Shown: piece after piece, positions 47,942 to 56,147 of the stretch
Numbering within the stretch: position 1 is the stretch's first letter
Layout of the letters: every line of letters starts with the position of its first letter
Assembly (NCBI RefSeq): GCF_039522665.1
Contig: NZ_BAAADV010000001.1
Coordinates: forward strand, 372,001-436,000
Direction: 5' to 3'
Source: Natronoarchaeum mannanilyticum
Lineage (GTDB): Archaea; Halobacteriota; Halobacteria; Halobacteriales; Natronoarchaeaceae
DNA length: 64,000 nt
Notes under the pieces: generated by a model
Told to the model about the DNA's origin: nothing
Database searches by the model: none
What the model saw: the letters and a program-made list of their open reading frames with translations, nothing else
Position numbers and translations under genes: made by a program

Positions 47942-48040
47942 CGGGAATCAGTGTGTCGTGCTGACGACCGACCGGACGATAAGGGGCAGGGACCCCGACC
48001 GCCCTCCCTCTTTACCCAGCCCGTCGTAGTTCAGCACGGG

Positions 48041-48538
48041 ATGACGACCGACGAACTCGAGGCGTACGGGATGGAACGCATGGACGACGAGGAGATAGAG
48101 CAGTTCCTCTCGATGCAGAGCATGGGGGTGCTCGGCCTACCGACCGAGGACGAGCCGTACCTCATCCCGCTGTCGTACGGTTTCGACGGGGGATCGCAGC
48201 TCTACTTCGTTTACCTCGTCGGAGAAGAGAGCCGGAAGGCCGAGCTGTCGGAGCGATCGCAGTCGGCCAGCTTCCTCGTCTACAGCGCCGAGACGGCGTT
48301 TCACTGGCGGAGCGTCGTCCTGTCGGGGACGCTGCGGGAGCTCTCGGAGGACGAACGCGAAAGCGTGACCGACGCCCAGACGCCGACCTGGCGCCCGAAG
48401 CTGATCGAGGCCGCCGGCGAGACCGAGCGGACGCGGTTCTGGGAGTTCAGCATCGAGGACGCGACCGGAATCAGACACGACGCGCAGCCGCCCGGGTACC
48501 CGTTCTACCGGCGGCCCGATGGTGACCGATCGGAGTAA
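48041..48538 (+). CDS. Pyridoxamine 5'-phosphate oxidase-related flavoprotein (PPOX family)
   Basis: A 165-residue split-barrel protein that probably binds FMN or F420. It starts with TTDELEAYGMERMDDEEIEQFL; the barrel block is MGVLGLPTEDEPYLIPLSYGF and SRKAELSERSQSASFLVYS. The closest relative in the window is the PPOX protein at 55503-55994 (same N-terminal pattern and length). ATG 48041 was chosen because the upstream extension has no homology to the paralogue. Substrate unknown; such proteins are common in stress and hypoxia regulons. Confidence 0.85.
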   Translation: MTTDELEAYGMERMDDEEIEQFLSMQSMGVLGLPTEDEPYLIPLSYGFDGGSQLYFVYLVGEESRKAELSERSQSASFLVYSAETAFHWRSVVLSGTLRELSEDERESVTDAQTPTWRPKLIEAAGETERTRFWEFSIEDATGIRHDAQPPGYPFYRRPDGDRSE

Positions 48539-48803: not shown

Positions 48804-51548
48804 CTAGTCGGGAAGCGCCCGTTCGAGCATCGTTCCGAGTTTGGGTGTCCCAACCCGTCGCCGGAATTCACGCTCGATCTGGCCGAAACCGAGGGGAACC
48901 AAGCTCATTCCGACCACCACCAGCCACCCGTCGAGGCCGATCGGAGCGGTGCTCAGCGCCAGGGAGATGCCGGGTAGGTAGACTGCGCCGACCAGAATCA
49001 GCGCGGATAGCCCGAGCGCGCCCCAGACGTACGGGTTCTCCGTGACCTCGTTCATCAAGACCCCGGAGGCGACGTCCCGAACGTTGAAAACGTGCCAGAG
49101 CTTGGCGAACGCTAACGTGAGAAACGAGATCGTGACGGCCTCGTCGGTCCCCATGCCGCCGGCGTACAGCCCGCCGCCGATCACGAACGCGCCGATCGTT
49201 GCGGCCGAAATCACGAGGCCGTACACTCCCAGTTCGGCCCAGTGGGTTCTCGTCAGGATCGGTTCCTCGGGATTCCGCGGCGGCCGATCCATGATATCAT
49301 CGCTGCCGCCGCAGGCGCCGAGCGCCAGGGCCGGGAAGACGTCGGTCACGACGTTGAGAAACAGGATCTGCAGGGGGAGCAACGGGAGCGGGAAGGCCAA
49401 CAGCGCGGCGATCAAGATCGTTAGCAACGCGCTGAGATTGCTGGATATCAGGTATATCACGAACTTCCGGATGTTGTTGAAGATGATCCGCCCCTCTCTG
49501 ACGGCGTGATAGATGCTCTCGAAGTTGTCGTCGCGGAGGATCATATCCGACGCTTCCTGGGCAACTTGCGTCCCGCGCTGTCCCATGGCGACGCCGATGT
49601 CGGCTTTCTTCAACGCCGGCGCGTCGTTGACACCGTCGCCCGTCATGGCCACGATCGAGCCGACCGTCTGGTGGATATCGATCAAATCGAGCTTGTCCTC
49701 GGGATCGACCCGCGCGAACACGGACGCGTTCACGAACCGATCCGTTTCCTCCTGTGAGAGAGTCTCCGGATCGTCAAATTCGCTGCCTTCGATTACGTCG
49801 ACGTCGTCAGTATCCACCAGTCCCACGCCGCGGGCGATGTTTCTCGCGGTCCCCGCGTGATCGCCGGTCGCCATGACGACCCGTATGCCGGCGTCCTGGC
49901 ACCGCTGGATGGTCGGTTTGACCTCCTCCCGGGGTGGATCGATGAACCCGACCAAGCCGAGCAACGACAGGTCCTCGTACGGCGGATCCTCCGCGCTGTC
50001 GACCTCCTTTCGCGCCAGGGCTAGAACCCGCAACCCCTCGTCAGCCATTCGGTCGCTCTTCCGGAGCCACTCCTCCCGATCGCTTTCTGACAGCGTCTCG
50101 GCGTCGCCGTCCGTCGCGACCCGCTCGGCTGAATCGATGACGGCCCTGGGTGCGCCTTTCACGGCGACTGTGTATCCCTCGTCCGTTTCGTGATACGTTG
50201 CCATCATCTTGACCGACGGATCGAAGGATACCTCGCGGGCCTCCGGCATCGATTCGAGAAGTTCGCTCTGGTCGATGCCGCCTTTTATCCCCGCGATCAG
50301 GAGCGCTACCTCCATCGGGTCACCCGTCGTTTCCACTTCGCCCGTTTGGTCGGACACGGACGCATTATTACACAGCACACCCACTTCGAGCGCTTCTCGT
50401 ACGACGGGATCCTCCGGTTCGTCCAGTTCCCGATCGCCGTGTCTGAACGACCCTTCCGTCTCGAGGCCGGTCCCGGTGATCTCGACCGCGCCGTTCGCCA
50501 GCTCGTACTCGGCGACGGTCATCCGGTTTTCCGTCAGCGTCCCCGTCTTGTCGGTACAGATGATAGTGGTTGAGCCGAGCGTCTCGACGGACGCCAGATT
50601 GGTGATCAGCGCGTTGCGATCTGCCATCCGCCACATCCCTCGCCCCAGGACCAGCGTGGCGACGATGGGAAGCCCCTCCGGGACGGCGGCGATAGCCAGT
50701 GCGACCGCCGTCTCCACCATCAGGAACAGGTCCTGCCCTCTGAGCCACCCGGACACCAGGACGATCGCTGCCACCAGCAGCAGAAACGGGACGAGTTTTC
50801 GCCCGAGGTTATCGATTTTCTCCTGCAGCGGCGTCTCTCCCTCGGCCGTTTCTTGAAGCGAGGCCGAAATGTGTCCTAACTCCGTGTCCGAGCCCGTCGC
50901 TACGACGACCGCCTCGGCGGACCCTCTCGTCACGTACGTTCCCTTGTAGAGCATATTCTCCCGCTCGGCGAGCGGAACGTCCTCGTCGAGGGGATCGCTC
51001 GTCTTCCCCACGGGAACCGATTCGCCGGTAAGAGCGGACTCGTCGACCCGGAGATTCGACGATTCGATAATGCGTAAATCAGCCGGGACGAGGTCGCCTG
51101 CCTCGAGAATCACGATGTCGCCCGGAACGAATTCTCCTGCAGGGATGGTCGCTTCGTCACCGGCCCGCCGAACCCGCGCTTCGATCTCCGTGATGTCCTG
51201 GAGACTCTCGATCGAGCTGATAGCGCGCATCTCGGTAACGAAGCCGATCGCACCGTTGACGACGAGAACGGCGAAGATCGCGACGCTCTCGACGACGTCA
51301 CCCATCGCGAACGCCGCGACTCCCGCGACGGCGAGCAACATGATGACGAAGCTTTCGAACTGATCCGCCAGGATCTCCGTCCAGCGTTTCTGTTCGGCTT
51401 CGCGTAGTTCGTTCAGACCGAACCGCTCCAGTCTGCGTTCTACTTCGTCTTCCGATAACCCCTCATCAGGTGAAACGTCCGTCCGCTCGAGGACGTCATT
51501 GACCGACTGTGACCACGGGGGAGGATCATCGGACGATTCCGGTGTCAT
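48804..51548 (-). CDS. P-type cation-transporting ATPase (Ca2+/P2-like)
   Basis: Ion pump of 914 residues with the full P2 layout: cation ATPase N-terminal domain, actuator TGES (174-177), ion-site PEGLP (290-294), phosphorylation site Asp333 in DKTGTLT, nucleotide-binding KGAP, hinge TGDGVNDAPA and six C-terminal helices. It resembles SERCA/PMR1-type and actinobacterial CtpF pumps, so Ca2+, Mn2+ or monovalent cations are possible. The start is ATG 51548; a GTG one codon upstream is equally possible. It sits among Usp, CBS and PPOX genes. Confidence 0.93.
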   Translation of the reverse strand: MTPESSDDPPPWSQSVNDVLERTDVSPDEGLSEDEVERRLERFGLNELREAEQKRWTEILADQFESFVIMLLAVAGVAAFAMGDVVESVAIFAVLVVNGAIGFVTEMRAISSIESLQDITEIEARVRRAGDEATIPAGEFVPGDIVILEAGDLVPADLRIIESSNLRVDESALTGESVPVGKTSDPLDEDVPLAERENMLYKGTYVTRGSAEAVVVATGSDTELGHISASLQETAEGETPLQEKIDNLGRKLVPFLLLVAAIVLVSGWLRGQDLFLMVETAVALAIAAVPEGLPIVATLVLGRGMWRMADRNALITNLASVETLGSTTIICTDKTGTLTENRMTVAEYELANGAVEITGTGLETEGSFRHGDRELDEPEDPVVREALEVGVLCNNASVSDQTGEVETTGDPMEVALLIAGIKGGIDQSELLESMPEAREVSFDPSVKMMATYHETDEGYTVAVKGAPRAVIDSAERVATDGDAETLSESDREEWLRKSDRMADEGLRVLALARKEVDSAEDPPYEDLSLLGLVGFIDPPREEVKPTIQRCQDAGIRVVMATGDHAGTARNIARGVGLVDTDDVDVIEGSEFDDPETLSQEETDRFVNASVFARVDPEDKLDLIDIHQTVGSIVAMTGDGVNDAPALKKADIGVAMGQRGTQVAQEASDMILRDDNFESIYHAVREGRIIFNNIRKFVIYLISSNLSALLTILIAALLAFPLPLLPLQILFLNVVTDVFPALALGACGGSDDIMDRPPRNPEEPILTRTHWAELGVYGLVISAATIGAFVIGGGLYAGGMGTDEAVTISFLTLAFAKLWHVFNVRDVASGVLMNEVTENPYVWGALGLSALILVGAVYLPGISLALSTAPIGLDGWLVVVGMSLVPLGFGQIEREFRRRVGTPKLGTMLERALPD

Positions 51549-51957
51549 CACTTACTGTGGGGTTCTACGTCACGCCGCCGGACTACTCTCGGGTCGATGC
51601 TGTGATCGACTATTGCCGTTTTGACACGGCCAACGAGCGCAGACAGTCTCAAGTCAGGAGGATCCCCTGTCATCTCAAAGCCACTTCTGTCTAGCATCCA
51701 CGCAGGGCTATTTTCCTGTTGGGGGCTCTCGAACGACCATCACCGGGATCGGAGATGTGCGAATAGAGAAATCGAGGCGATCTACGAACTCGCCGCCGCC
51801 GTCGAGCGCGACAGCGACCTCCAGCCCAGCACGATGCTCTCGACGGGCAAGGTGACCGATCCCGGCCAGGAGACTATCCGGCGCATCGAGCGTGACTATC
51901 AAGGCGCAGGTGGCAGTCGACGGACGGGGCGGACAGGTACATGAAACGAGACGCCGA
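51549..51957. other. Intergenic gap with possible gene remnants
   Basis: About 400 bases between the ATPase and the CBS-MaoC gene. On the minus strand, 51708-51764 encodes IRTSPIPVMVVREPPTGK, which resembles the C-terminus of a Usp domain, but nothing Usp-like precedes it. On the plus strand a short frame (EIEAIYELAAAVERDSDLQ, from about 51771) looks codon-like but unassignable. No complete gene is seen. Confidence 0.3.
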
Positions 51958-52842
51958 ATGTCACCTATGCTCGTACGGATAGCCGTCGAAGACGTGATGC
52001 GCCGCGACGTTGCGGTCGTTACCCCCGAAACGGCCGCCCGGGAAGTCGCGCGGACGTTACGAGACGCCGCTGTCGGTGCGGTGATCGTCGACGCCGATCC
52101 GCAGGGGATCGTCACCCAGACCGACATCGTCGACCTGATAGCGGCCGACCGGGATACGACGACCGTGCGCGCGGCCGATCTCATGTCGTCGCCGCTGGTG
52201 ACGATCGCCCCCGAAGAGACGATCGAGGTCGCCGCCGGGAAGATGGACCGCCACGATATCAAGCGGCTCGCCGTCACCGAAGGCCGCGACATCGTCGGTA
52301 TCATCACGACCGACGGTGTTTCCGACTACGTCCCGAAGCTCGCGAACCGCGAGTCGAAGCGCACCCACGATCTGGATTCCCGACTCGGCGTCTCCTACGC
52401 CGAGGAGGACTGGGAGTTCGAGCGCGTAGACGATACGAGGGAGGGTCGGATCGATGTCGGCGACACGGTCCGGTTTACGAAGCGGATCGATGACGCCGAC
52501 GTCCAGGCGTTCGCACGGGCCAGCGGCGACACGAACCGCCTTCATCTCGACGAAACGTTCGCCGACGAAACCCAGTTTGGCGAGCGGATCGTCCACGGCG
52601 TCCTCGCGGTCGGGGTGATCAGCGCCGCCCTGGCTCGTCTGCCCGGCCTCACGATCTACCTCTCACAGGAGATCAGCTTCCGGGAACCGATCGCGGTCGG
52701 CGAAACGGTGACCGCGATGTGCGAATTCGTCGACAGGCTCGGGGACAACCGCTACCGACTGGCGACGCGGGTGTTCGGCGAGGACGGTACCGTAGCTATC
52801 GACGGCACCGCTACGGTGCTCGTACAGGAACTCCCGGACTGA
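51958..52842 (+). CDS. CBS-domain pair fused to MaoC-like (R)-hydratase
   Basis: A 294-residue fusion. Residues 5-125 are a CBS pair (IAVEDVMRRDVAVVTP, GIVTQTDIVDLI, RLAVTEGRDIVGIITTDGVSDYV) that would bind adenosine ligands. Residues 165-292 are a hotdog MaoC/PhaJ domain with catalytic Asp191 and His196 in SGDTNRLHLDETFA and the GERIVHGVLAVGVISAAL helix. It could hydrate enoyl-CoA or make (R)-3-hydroxyacyl-CoA under adenylate control. Starts at ATG 51958 or 51967. An SDR of the FabG/PhaB type lies 1.3 kb downstream. Confidence 0.85.
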   Translation: MSPMLVRIAVEDVMRRDVAVVTPETAAREVARTLRDAAVGAVIVDADPQGIVTQTDIVDLIAADRDTTTVRAADLMSSPLVTIAPEETIEVAAGKMDRHDIKRLAVTEGRDIVGIITTDGVSDYVPKLANRESKRTHDLDSRLGVSYAEEDWEFERVDDTREGRIDVGDTVRFTKRIDDADVQAFARASGDTNRLHLDETFADETQFGERIVHGVLAVGVISAALARLPGLTIYLSQEISFREPIAVGETVTAMCEFVDRLGDNRYRLATRVFGEDGTVAIDGTATVLVQELPD

Positions 52843-52958: not shown

Positions 52959-53381
52959 CTAGTACGGCGGGCGCTGCGCCCGGATCACGTCAGCCAGTCC
53001 TTCCTGCTCGTCGGCGAGCAGTTCGTTCAGGTCGTCGACGGTGATGATACCGACCAACGCGTCGTCATCGTCGCAGACGGGTAATCGGCGAACCCCGTGC
53101 TCGGCCATCAACTCGGTGGCCTGGTAGAATCCGGCGCCGCGCTCGATCGTACACAGGTCGGACGACATCACGTCTTCGGCGCTGAGATCGCTCGGGTCGG
53201 CCTGTCGAGCTAACACGCGGATCGTCAGATCTCTGTCGGTAACGATCCCCCGCAGCTCGCCGTCGTCGGTGATCAGGATACTCCCGACCTCTTCGTCGCG
53301 CATCTCGGTCGCGAGGTCTTCGATCGATGCTTCCGGGCTCGAAGTGACGACATCACTCCGTGCGAGATTTTCGATTGGCAT
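52959..53381 (-). CDS. CBS-domain protein
   Basis: A stand-alone CBS pair of 140 residues: LARSDVVTSSPEASIEDLA, GIVTDRDLTIRVLA, then EDVMSSDLCTIERGAGFYQA and GIITVDDLNELLA. It resembles HRP1-type stress proteins that bind adenosine nucleotides. It is read towards the CBS-MaoC gene. The upstream gap holds a perfect 10-bp inverted repeat. Confidence 0.9.
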   Translation of the reverse strand: MPIENLARSDVVTSSPEASIEDLATEMRDEEVGSILITDDGELRGIVTDRDLTIRVLARQADPSDLSAEDVMSSDLCTIERGAGFYQATELMAEHGVRRLPVCDDDDALVGIITVDDLNELLADEQEGLADVIRAQRPPY

Positions 53382-53533: not shown

Positions 53534-54025
53534 CTACGTAGTAGTATCTTGATAAAATTCCGGGTGCGCCTCGATCTCGTCCAGTCGCGGCGGTGTGGTA
53601 TGGCGAACGACGTACACGTCGTAGGTGAGATCACTCGCGACGTTGGCGCCGATACTCGTGAGCGGTGTGACGACGCGACCGACGTTCTCGCTCCCGAGGA
53701 ACATGACGGTCGGATCGTACTGTTCGGCGACGCTGGCGATCTCGTTTGCGATCTCTCTGGCTGGCGGATATTCGCGGATGCGTTCGTGCTCGAACGTGGC
53801 GTCCGGAGCGAGCTCCGTCACCTGGTCACGAAGCCGGCTGACGACGTTGTCGACGTCAAATGCCTGCTCCTCGCCGATCCAGCCTTTTTCTCGAGCGTAC
53901 CGTTTGCGCTCGGACACGACGCTCACAGCGACGACCTCCTCGTCGAGGGCGTCAGCGTACTCGACCGCCCTGGCGAGAGCGGCGGTAGCCATCTCCGATC
54001 CGTCGAATGGAACGACGAACGTCAT
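53534..54025 (-). CDS. Universal stress protein-like
   Basis: A 163-residue Usp-fold protein. It has the N-terminal VVPFDGSEMATAALARAVEYA, but the C-terminal ATP motif is altered: FLGSENVGRVVTPLTSIGANVASDLTYDVYVV instead of G-x2-G-x9-G-S. It may therefore be a non-ATP-binding type. It is divergent from the SDR gene and precedes the CBS gene on the same strand. Confidence 0.82.
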   Translation of the reverse strand: MTFVVPFDGSEMATAALARAVEYADALDEEVVAVSVVSERKRYAREKGWIGEEQAFDVDNVVSRLRDQVTELAPDATFEHERIREYPPAREIANEIASVAEQYDPTVMFLGSENVGRVVTPLTSIGANVASDLTYDVYVVRHTTPPRLDEIEAHPEFYQDTTT

Positions 54026-54159: not shown

Positions 54160-54927
54160 ATGACTGTCGATAACGCGGTCTCGATCGTGACTGGGGGAGC
54201 TCGTGGTATCGGGAAGGGCATCGCTGAGGTGCTCGCTGCCGAAGGTGCGACCGTCGTCGTGGCCGACATCGACGAAGATGTTGCCAAGGAGGCGGCTGAC
54301 GAGCTGCCAGGGGACGCGATGGCCGTGGGCGTCGACGTTTCCGATCCCGCGGAGACGGAGGCGCTCGCGGAGACCGTCGTCGACGAGTACGGACGGATCG
54401 ACGTGCTATGTGCAAACGCCGGCATCTTCCCCTCGGCGCCCATCGAGGAGATGACGGTCGAGGACTGGGACGAGGTCACCGACGTTAACGCGAAGGGCGC
54501 GTTCCTGTGTGTCAAAGCGTGCCTTCCCCACATGAGAACCCAGGATTACGGGCGGATCGTGTTCACGTCGTCGATCACGGGGCCGATGGTCGGGTACCCC
54601 GGGTGGGCCCACTACGGTGCGAGCAAGGCCGCGATGCTGGGATTCGTCCGGACGGCCGCGATAGAAGTCGCCGACCGGGACATCACGATCAACGCGGTGC
54701 TCCCCGGGAACGTCCGAACTGGCGGGCTCGACGACCTCGGCGAGGACTACCTCGACCGGATGCGCGAGTCCATCCCGAAAGGCGAACTCGGCACGCCGGA
54801 AGACATCGGTCACGCCGTAGCGTTTCTCGCCTCCGAGGAGGCCGGGTACATCACCGGGACGACGCTCGTGGTCGACGGCGGGCAGACGCTCCCCGAATCA
54901 CAGCTCGCACTGGAGGAGATGGACTGA
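54160..54927 (+). CDS. SDR oxidoreductase (FabG/acetoacetyl-CoA reductase type)
   Basis: Classical short-chain dehydrogenase of 255 residues: NAD(P) loop TGGARGIGKG, NAG in CANAGIF, catalytic Ser in FTSSITGPM, Tyr-x3-Lys in YGASKAA, and the C-terminal GYITGTTLVVDGG. This subgroup includes 3-oxoacyl reductases and PhaB. Near the CBS-MaoC hydratase it could complete an (R)-3-hydroxyacyl-CoA route (inference). The start has a TTTTACG patch about 40 bases upstream. Confidence 0.88.
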   Translation: MTVDNAVSIVTGGARGIGKGIAEVLAAEGATVVVADIDEDVAKEAADELPGDAMAVGVDVSDPAETEALAETVVDEYGRIDVLCANAGIFPSAPIEEMTVEDWDEVTDVNAKGAFLCVKACLPHMRTQDYGRIVFTSSITGPMVGYPGWAHYGASKAAMLGFVRTAAIEVADRDITINAVLPGNVRTGGLDDLGEDYLDRMRESIPKGELGTPEDIGHAVAFLASEEAGYITGTTLVVDGGQTLPESQLALEEMD

Positions 54928-54963: not shown

Positions 54964-55413
54964 TCAATCCCCGTGGGACACTTCCTTGCGACCGGTCAGC
55001 GAGTCGGGGAGGAGCCGGAAGTACCGGAAGGTAGTTTCTTCGGGCGGTTGCTCGAACACGTCCACGGTGGGAATCCGGATCGCCCACATCCCCTGCACGG
55101 CCATCGATTCGTGAGGCAAGTCCGATATCTCTTCGAGCGATCCCGTCGCGACGACGCTCCGCCACCCCTCGTCTGCCTGGGCGTGCGAAACGAAGGAAAC
55201 CGGTCGGTCGACGAGGTCCTCTTTCCGGCTATCCGGGGGAAACGAGAGTCGGAAGTAGAACGCCGGCTGGTCGGCGTCGTAGCCGTACGACACCGGGAAC
55301 GAGACGGGAGAGTCGTCGCTCGTCGTCGCAAACGAGAGCACGCCCGTCCCGCCCTGTCCCAGGAACTCGGTTCGCTCGTCGTCAGTCAGTTGTAGCCACC
55401 GAAGCGATTCCAT
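54964..55413 (-). CDS. PPOX-family flavoprotein
   Basis: A 149-residue split-barrel protein from ATG 55413: MESLRWLQLTDDERTEFLG, then VLSFATTSDDSPVSFPVSYGYD and SRKEDLVDRPVSFVSHA. It is more diverged than the two other PPOX proteins in the window. An alternative upstream start at 55440 adds nine residues. It is convergent with the SDR gene. Confidence 0.82.
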   Translation of the reverse strand: MESLRWLQLTDDERTEFLGQGGTGVLSFATTSDDSPVSFPVSYGYDADQPAFYFRLSFPPDSRKEDLVDRPVSFVSHAQADEGWRSVVATGSLEEISDLPHESMAVQGMWAIRIPTVDVFEQPPEETTFRYFRLLPDSLTGRKEVSHGD

Positions 55414-55502
55414 GGTGACAAGTACCACGAACTGGGACATAATGATTTGTCACGCGGTACGCCGTCGGGGTCGTATCGGCGCGTCGATCCCTTCGAGCGA
55501 CG

Positions 55503-55994
55503 TCAGTCGGAGCGATTCTCGTCCGCATCGGTGGCGAGTTCCGGTGGCAGGCCGGTGTGCTTGACGCCCGACTGCTCCTCGATCCGGAACTCGTACACTT
55601 TGACACCCCCCGACAGTTCGGCGCTCCGGAGAGCGCTCGGACGCCACATCTCGTCTGCAATCTCTCGGATCGCATCCCACTCAGACTCGGGTACCGCTTC
55701 GAGTTGGCCGGTCAGGCACGCGCTCTCCCAGTTGAACGTCGAATCGACCGAGTAAACGAGGAACGTAGCCGCGTCGGCGCGGTCGCTCAACTCCACTTTG
55801 CGACTCTCGGAACCGACCAGGTAGGTGAAGTACAGGCTCGAATCGCCGTCGTAGCCGAACGATATCGGGATGACGTAGGGTGCTGTCGACGCCGGCAGGG
55901 CGAGAATGCCTACGCTCTGGTTCGACAGGAACCCCCTTATCTCGTCGTCGTTCATTTGAACCAGACCGTACGCTTGGAGTTCGTCGAGTGACAT
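55503..55994 (-). CDS. PPOX-family flavoprotein, paralogue of 48041-48538
   Basis: A 163-residue split-barrel protein starting SLDELQAYGLVQMNDDEIRGFLSNQSVGILALP and aligning well with the protein at 48041. The barrel block is YVIPISFGYDGDSSLYFTYLVGSESRKVEL. The frame continues upstream, but homology to the paralogue begins at ATG 55994. It is 89 bases upstream of the PPOX gene at 54964, on the same strand. Confidence 0.85.
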   Translation of the reverse strand: MSLDELQAYGLVQMNDDEIRGFLSNQSVGILALPASTAPYVIPISFGYDGDSSLYFTYLVGSESRKVELSDRADAATFLVYSVDSTFNWESACLTGQLEAVPESEWDAIREIADEMWRPSALRSAELSGGVKVYEFRIEEQSGVKHTGLPPELATDADENRSD

Positions 55995-56075
55995 GCATGC
56001 GCTGTATCGACGACGGCGCTGAAATACCCACCACCGAACGACTAATGCGTGGAGAAACGTGTGTTCGCACCTGAA

Positions 56076-56147
56076 ATGGCGATCCTCGTCGCCGTCGACG
56101 GCCCCGGATCGCCGGAGCAGGCTCTGGAGTACGCACTGGTCAACTAG
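56076..56147 (+). pseudogene. Truncated UspA 5' end
   Basis: ATG 56076 opens AILVAVDGPGSPEQALEYALVN, a clear Usp N-terminus (beta1 and helix 1), then meets TAG at 56145-56147. No further Usp sequence follows before the sulfatase promoter, so only the first 23 codons of a Usp gene are left. Confidence 0.6.

Follow-up and report, generated by a model that had tools for sequence, protein, structure and literature searches.

The window analysed here, a stretch of 64,000 nucleotides from a haloarchaeal genome of 3.57 Mb in 10 contigs, carries a gene for a protein of 291 residues in which a CBS pair precedes a MaoC/PhaJ-type hydratase domain (Table 1). Both domains score above the Pfam cut-offs, in agreement with the initial annotation, which described an (R)-specific hydratase with a fused CBS pair. 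The CBS pair is recovered as two stretches (E 3.8e-21, above the curated cut-off), and the MaoC domain matches PF01575 with E 2.9e-17 (62.8 bits versus a cut-off of 27). The start originally assigned, ATG 51958, gives an open frame of 294 residues, but ATG 51967 is favoured by the homologues, 57 of 62 of which have Met at that column. The dyad reported as intact Asp191/His196 is correctly named in the 294-residue numbering; it corresponds to D188/H193 in the 291-residue numbering used below, and is kept in all 62 sequences. A short open frame upstream of the gene (51621–51944) has no Pfam match, and may be a remnant or non-coding.

Table 1. Features of the CBS-hydratase gene and its surroundings in the window (residue numbers refer to the 291-residue protein).
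Feature	Position	Strand	Basis
CBS-CBS-MaoC fusion protein, 291 aa	51967..52842	+	Intact ORF, Pfam, homologue alignment
CBS pair, residues about 6–118	51982..52320	+	Pfam, conservation, fold neighbours
G117, acid position of CBS2; Gly here, Asp/Glu in 58/62 sequences	52315-52317		
Flexible linker, residues 130–142	52354..52392	+	AlphaFold2 pLDDT below 50
YxxxDW(E)F motif, then MaoC/PhaJ hot-dog hydratase domain, about residues 143–289	52393..52833	+	
Catalytic D188	52528-52530	+	Conservation, structure comparison
Catalytic H193	52543-52545	+	Conservation, structure comparison
P-type cation ATPase, divergent neighbour, recurrent in stress-type loci	48804..51551	-	Pfam
Stand-alone CBS-pair protein, convergent neighbour	52959..53381	-	Pfam
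Universal stress protein (Usp)	53534..54025	-	Pfam
SDR, FabG-like reductase	54160..54927	+	NCBIfam
PNPOx-like (Pyridox_ox_2) genes, three in about 8 kb	48038-48538, 54964-55440, 55503-56108		

The fusion is encoded by one open reading frame in 62/62 full-length halobacterial sequences. The GC content by codon position is the same in the CBS half (0.71/0.45/0.84) and in the MaoC half (0.70/0.43/0.83) of the window's gene, which indicates that there is no change of frame across the junction. A frameshift or misassembly that joined two normally separate genes, a concern raised when the gene was first described, is refuted by these two observations and has a negligible probability. Full-length single-frame homologues, 39–51% identical, occur in dozens of genera, so the fusion is not a product of chance. 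It is a genuine and ancient fusion, present in about a hundred related species.

A sample of 394 genomes of the class Halobacteria was searched for relatives. A first protein scan of genome contigs gave no match, and the best 80 matches of a scan with the alignment were all from Halobacteria. A match running from the CBS pair into the MaoC domain was found in at least 107 of the 394 genomes, a lower bound since matches were listed down to about E 1e-50; the count includes four genomes (G005, G205, G309 and G323) whose matched stretch starts at 104–107, and of these G323 was read. Residue conservation was assessed in a set of 62 sequences comprising 60 genome loci, the window's own included, and two plasmid loci.

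The CBS half is conserved far less than the MaoC half across this set, and the residues of the nucleotide motif are among its few invariant positions. The first repeat of the window copy retains an intact motif (G47-I-V-T50-x-x-D53), and the G..T/S..D pattern is present in 62/62 sequences, with G47 and D53 each in 62/62 and position 50 occupied by Thr in 61 and by Ser in one. In the second repeat the window copy reads G111-I-I-T114-x-x-G117, with loss of the acid, whereas across the set G111 is found in 62/62, T/S114 in 59/62 and D/E117 in 58/62. The protein thus has the tandem CBS repeats and, in CBS1, the G-h-x-[ST]-x-x-[DN] motif that a Bateman module carries in at least one repeat; the motif is absent from the second repeat of the window copy, and in Bateman sensors it is common in that repeat but not required.

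An AlphaFold2 model, built on 36 sequences with the plasmid-derived row left out, has a mean pLDDT of 86.9 and a pTM of 0.52, with residues 130–142 disordered. In this model the shapes of the domains are predicted firmly, and their relative placement is uncertain. A Foldseek search of the PDB with the CBS half returned CBS-CP12, AMP/ADP-bound AcuB, ST2348 and HRP1. The solved structures nearest to the MaoC half are R-hydratases, PhaJ1 from Pseudomonas aeruginosa (5cpg, E 1e-27) and PhaJ from Aeromonas caviae (1iq6), which share its hot-dog fold and Asp/His dyad and have no CBS domain. The model superimposes on 1iq6 with a root mean square deviation of 1.4 Å over 129 columns (40% identity).

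The family carries the signature SGDTNRLH. Bacterial PhaJs have N-P-[LV]-H at this position, as seen in 1iq6 and 5cpg, whereas the fusion has N-R-L-H, R191 taking the place of the Pro expected of a PhaJ in 57 of 62 sequences. SGDTNRLH recurs in nearly all of the haloarchaeal MaoC proteins of the stand-alone kind that were read, whose genes in many cases adjoin phaC, and on this comparison R191 is taken as a lineage signature common to the fusion and the PhaJ1-type haloarchaeal proteins, one that would not exclude the domain from the hydratases. The stand-alone PhaJ1-type proteins, through which the fusion was compared with PhaJ1 of Haloferax mediterranei (HFX_5217, encoded in the pha cluster), are about 50–61% identical to the fusion's MaoC domain and have a non-CBS N-terminal segment of about 50–100 residues. 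The best NCBIfam match of the domain is NF006045/PRK08190 (80.7 bits, far below the cut-off of 282), an enoyl-CoA hydratase/phosphate acetyltransferase in which MaoC is joined to phosphate acetyltransferase and there is no CBS domain. By sequence, the hydratase domain is kin to PhaJ1 of haloarchaea, a hydratase that is bound to granules and encoded in the pha cluster.

In a tree with poor support, a single branch separates the fusion set from the stand-alone set. An independent origin of the window's fusion was considered, as a first tree grouped its MaoC domain with the stand-alone proteins, and was not retained; without the outgroup, a single and very weak branch holds every CBS form on the same side. 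The outgroup-free tree is compatible with a single fusion event that may have given rise to all CBS forms.

The neighbourhoods of the fusion genes were counted in 56 dereplicated loci, with 20 random regions as control. In the commonest context (29/56 loci), the fusion gene has an RNA_binding-domain (PF01877) gene and one for an AAA/adenylate-kinase-like protein in its vicinity; this conserved pair is found near the core-type fusion genes, for example at L045:13156-13575 and L068:11975-12529, and we know of no functional or PHA link for it. A second set of 12 sequences (SH-aLRT 100) is mostly surrounded by genes for Usp, PNPOx-like proteins and P-type ATPases, and a PNPOx-like gene is often the immediate neighbour of the fusion gene, whereas the random regions contain PNPOx-like genes in 0/20, P-type ATPase genes in 1/20 and Usp genes in 1/20. 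The neighbours in the window are the same, in line with the Usp/CBS stress genes noted at first reading: Pfam identifies Usp, a CBS pair, a P-type ATPase, three PNPOx-like proteins and a cupredoxin. The ATPase gene is divergent from the fusion gene in Halopiger xanaduensis, as in the window. The window copy falls outside the stress clade in a free quick tree, and a tree in which it is held inside that clade has a slightly better likelihood (p-AU 0.547). On a plasmid of Salinigranum marinum (L247:10434-14714), genes annotated as subunits of a bacterial-type F0F1 ATP synthase lie near a partly annotated CBS-MaoC gene.

The FabG-type SDR described initially as lying 1.3 kb away is indeed found at that distance downstream, with two opposite-strand genes between it and the fusion. 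A role for it as a partner is not supported, as a homologue occurs in 6/56 loci versus 2/20 random regions, which is no clear enrichment.

The initial annotation knew of no characterised protein with this layout, a statement that does not hold if the homologue in H. mediterranei is considered. Plasmid pHME505 encodes a full-length homologue, WP_231513002.1, annotated only as 'CBS domain-containing protein', which is 44–45% identical to the window protein over the whole length (44.4% over 100% of the query). Read from the GTG at L038:8019, the protein has exactly 301 residues, the reported length of HFX_6433, and the sole other MaoC gene on pHME505 encodes 156 residues. By length and by exclusion, the homologue appears to be HFX_6433/PhaJ5, which was deleted and complemented in 2016. 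Deleting phaJ5 alone lowered neither the PHBV content nor the mobilisation of PHA, and reintroducing it into the delta-5phaJ delta-2phaB strain did not restore PHV (PMC4823750). The same study treats PhaJ5 as a plain R-hydratase and does not mention CBS domains, and it describes PhaJ1 as granule-bound and active in PHA mobilisation by dehydration (PMC4823750). One member of the family thus appears to be known genetically already, with its CBS module overlooked. The null phaJ5 genetics fits redundancy or an unmet condition, and equally a minor role.

The CBS-hydratase gene of pHME505 is found about 1.35 kb away from phaC3 and adjoins genes for Usp and pantetheine-phosphate adenylyltransferase (PPAT), whereas the window's gene lies beside a P-type ATPase gene. 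The nearby phaC encodes WP_004060696.1, the last of four PhaC references in PMC12863089, and is taken as phaC3; the other phaC of the plasmid is shorter, with a frame of 397 residues, as expected for PhaC2. In stationary phase, expression of phaC3 rises about 6-fold by induction, and the phaC paralogues are said to have no PHA-related genes around them (PMC12863089). The presence of a PhaJ-type gene, probably phaJ5, together with phaC3 in the stretch L038:4954-8924 contradicts the latter statement, and this CBS-hydratase gene is a candidate PHA-related neighbour that has been overlooked.

Class III phaC is present in 107/107 genomes with the fusion and in 118/287 without it, within the sample of 394. 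The association, stratified by family, has a p value of about 1e-13, and of 0.004 at genus level; shared ancestry still weighs on both values, of which that at genus level is the safer, and the co-occurrence is partly phylogenetic. The phaE and phaC genes whose presence was to be checked are both encoded in the window's genome, in one stretch of contig C4 together with a PhaJ1-type gene. The pha cluster of Haloferax larsenii likewise contains a PhaJ1-type gene, the counterpart of that of H. mediterranei, alongside phaC, phaE and a gene for a FabG-like reductase. PHA metabolism is the likely setting of the fusion protein, because of its PhaJ1-type domain, the phaC found in every fusion genome and the phaC3 neighbour in H. 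mediterranei.

An earlier case of a hot-dog domain that carries a CBS pair is BH3175 of Bacillus halodurans, from a bacterial CBS-associated hot-dog subfamily of unknown substrate that is listed apart from the MaoC dehydratase-like subfamily (PMC516016). Energy-dependent control of such a protein was already proposed by Dillon and Bateman in 2004 (PMC516016). The idea of a CBS-gated hot-dog enzyme is thus old, and was put forward for another subfamily; a description of the CBS-MaoC or CBS-PhaJ layout was not found in the literature searched, which left out most subscription papers and in which the 2004 hot-dog review was the only related work.

Judged from sequence, the protein may be a PhaJ-type (R)-specific enoyl-CoA hydratase with an N-terminal Bateman module, controlled by adenine nucleotides and acting as a sensor-run paralogue of PhaJ1, a proposal on which we are evenly divided. 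The homology and the intact dyad suggest that the catalytic domain would reversibly interconvert (R)-3-hydroxyacyl-CoA and trans-2-enoyl-CoA, the step that links PHA metabolism to beta-oxidation. The most likely ligand of the CBS pair is an adenine nucleotide, bound at the conserved site 1, and binding would rearrange the dimer or oligomer across the flexible linker and thereby raise or lower hydratase activity, or change the location of the enzyme. The PhaJ1-type kin have a non-CBS N-terminus, and in H. mediterranei PhaJ1 is bound to granules; on this comparison the fusion would be a sensor-controlled paralogue, used under energy limitation or stress or in stationary phase. Control by energy charge is a plausible hypothesis. 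Evidence against this reading comes from the null phaJ5 genetics, the rarity of phaC near the fusion, the commonest gene context with no PHA link, the acid lost from CBS2 of the window copy and the partly phylogenetic nature of the co-occurrence. The fuller proposal, that direct adenylate sensing by the fused CBS pair gates the exchange between PHA and beta-oxidation of haloarchaea as a starvation or stationary-phase switch parallel to granule-bound PhaJ1, which would make the fusion a regulated class of R-hydratases concealed by the name PhaJ5, is put forward tentatively.

CBS pairs bind many different ligands, and c-di-AMP has been reported in haloarchaea. The hydratase may be real and its CBS pair a sensor of c-di-AMP, S-adenosylmethionine, NAD or CoA compounds, a reading that we consider rather doubtful: the degenerate CBS2 motif of the window copy, the CoA-synthesis gene (PPAT) adjoining the H. 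mediterranei member and the AAA/adenylate-kinase-like gene near many members speak for it, but CBS1 retains the invariant ribose-binding motif and AMP/ADP-bound AcuB is among the fold neighbours. The CBS pair might instead serve chiefly as a module for oligomerisation or for the docking of a partner, on a constitutive, minor and redundant R-hydratase, but this is unlikely. The absence of a phenotype upon phaJ5 deletion or complementation, the low-confidence linker with its uncertain domain placement and the weaker conservation of the CBS half would agree with such a module, but the few residues that are invariant in that half include those of the nucleotide motif. A role in acyl-CoA metabolism outside PHA, for example in short-chain fatty-acid or stress-linked lipid turnover, is likewise improbable; in its favour, only 1/56 loci have phaC at less than 9 kb from the fusion and the core context is not PHA-related, whereas the constant company of phaC in the fusion genomes and the PhaJ1-type catalytic domain argue against it.

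Should the CBS pair prove to control the hydratase, the fusion would provide a direct biochemical link from energy status to carbon-storage turnover in PHBV-making archaea. Such regulation would also offer a reason for the null result of the single phaJ5 deletion under the published conditions, since an effect may call for stationary phase or limiting energy, and it can be checked cheaply in a genetically tractable organism.
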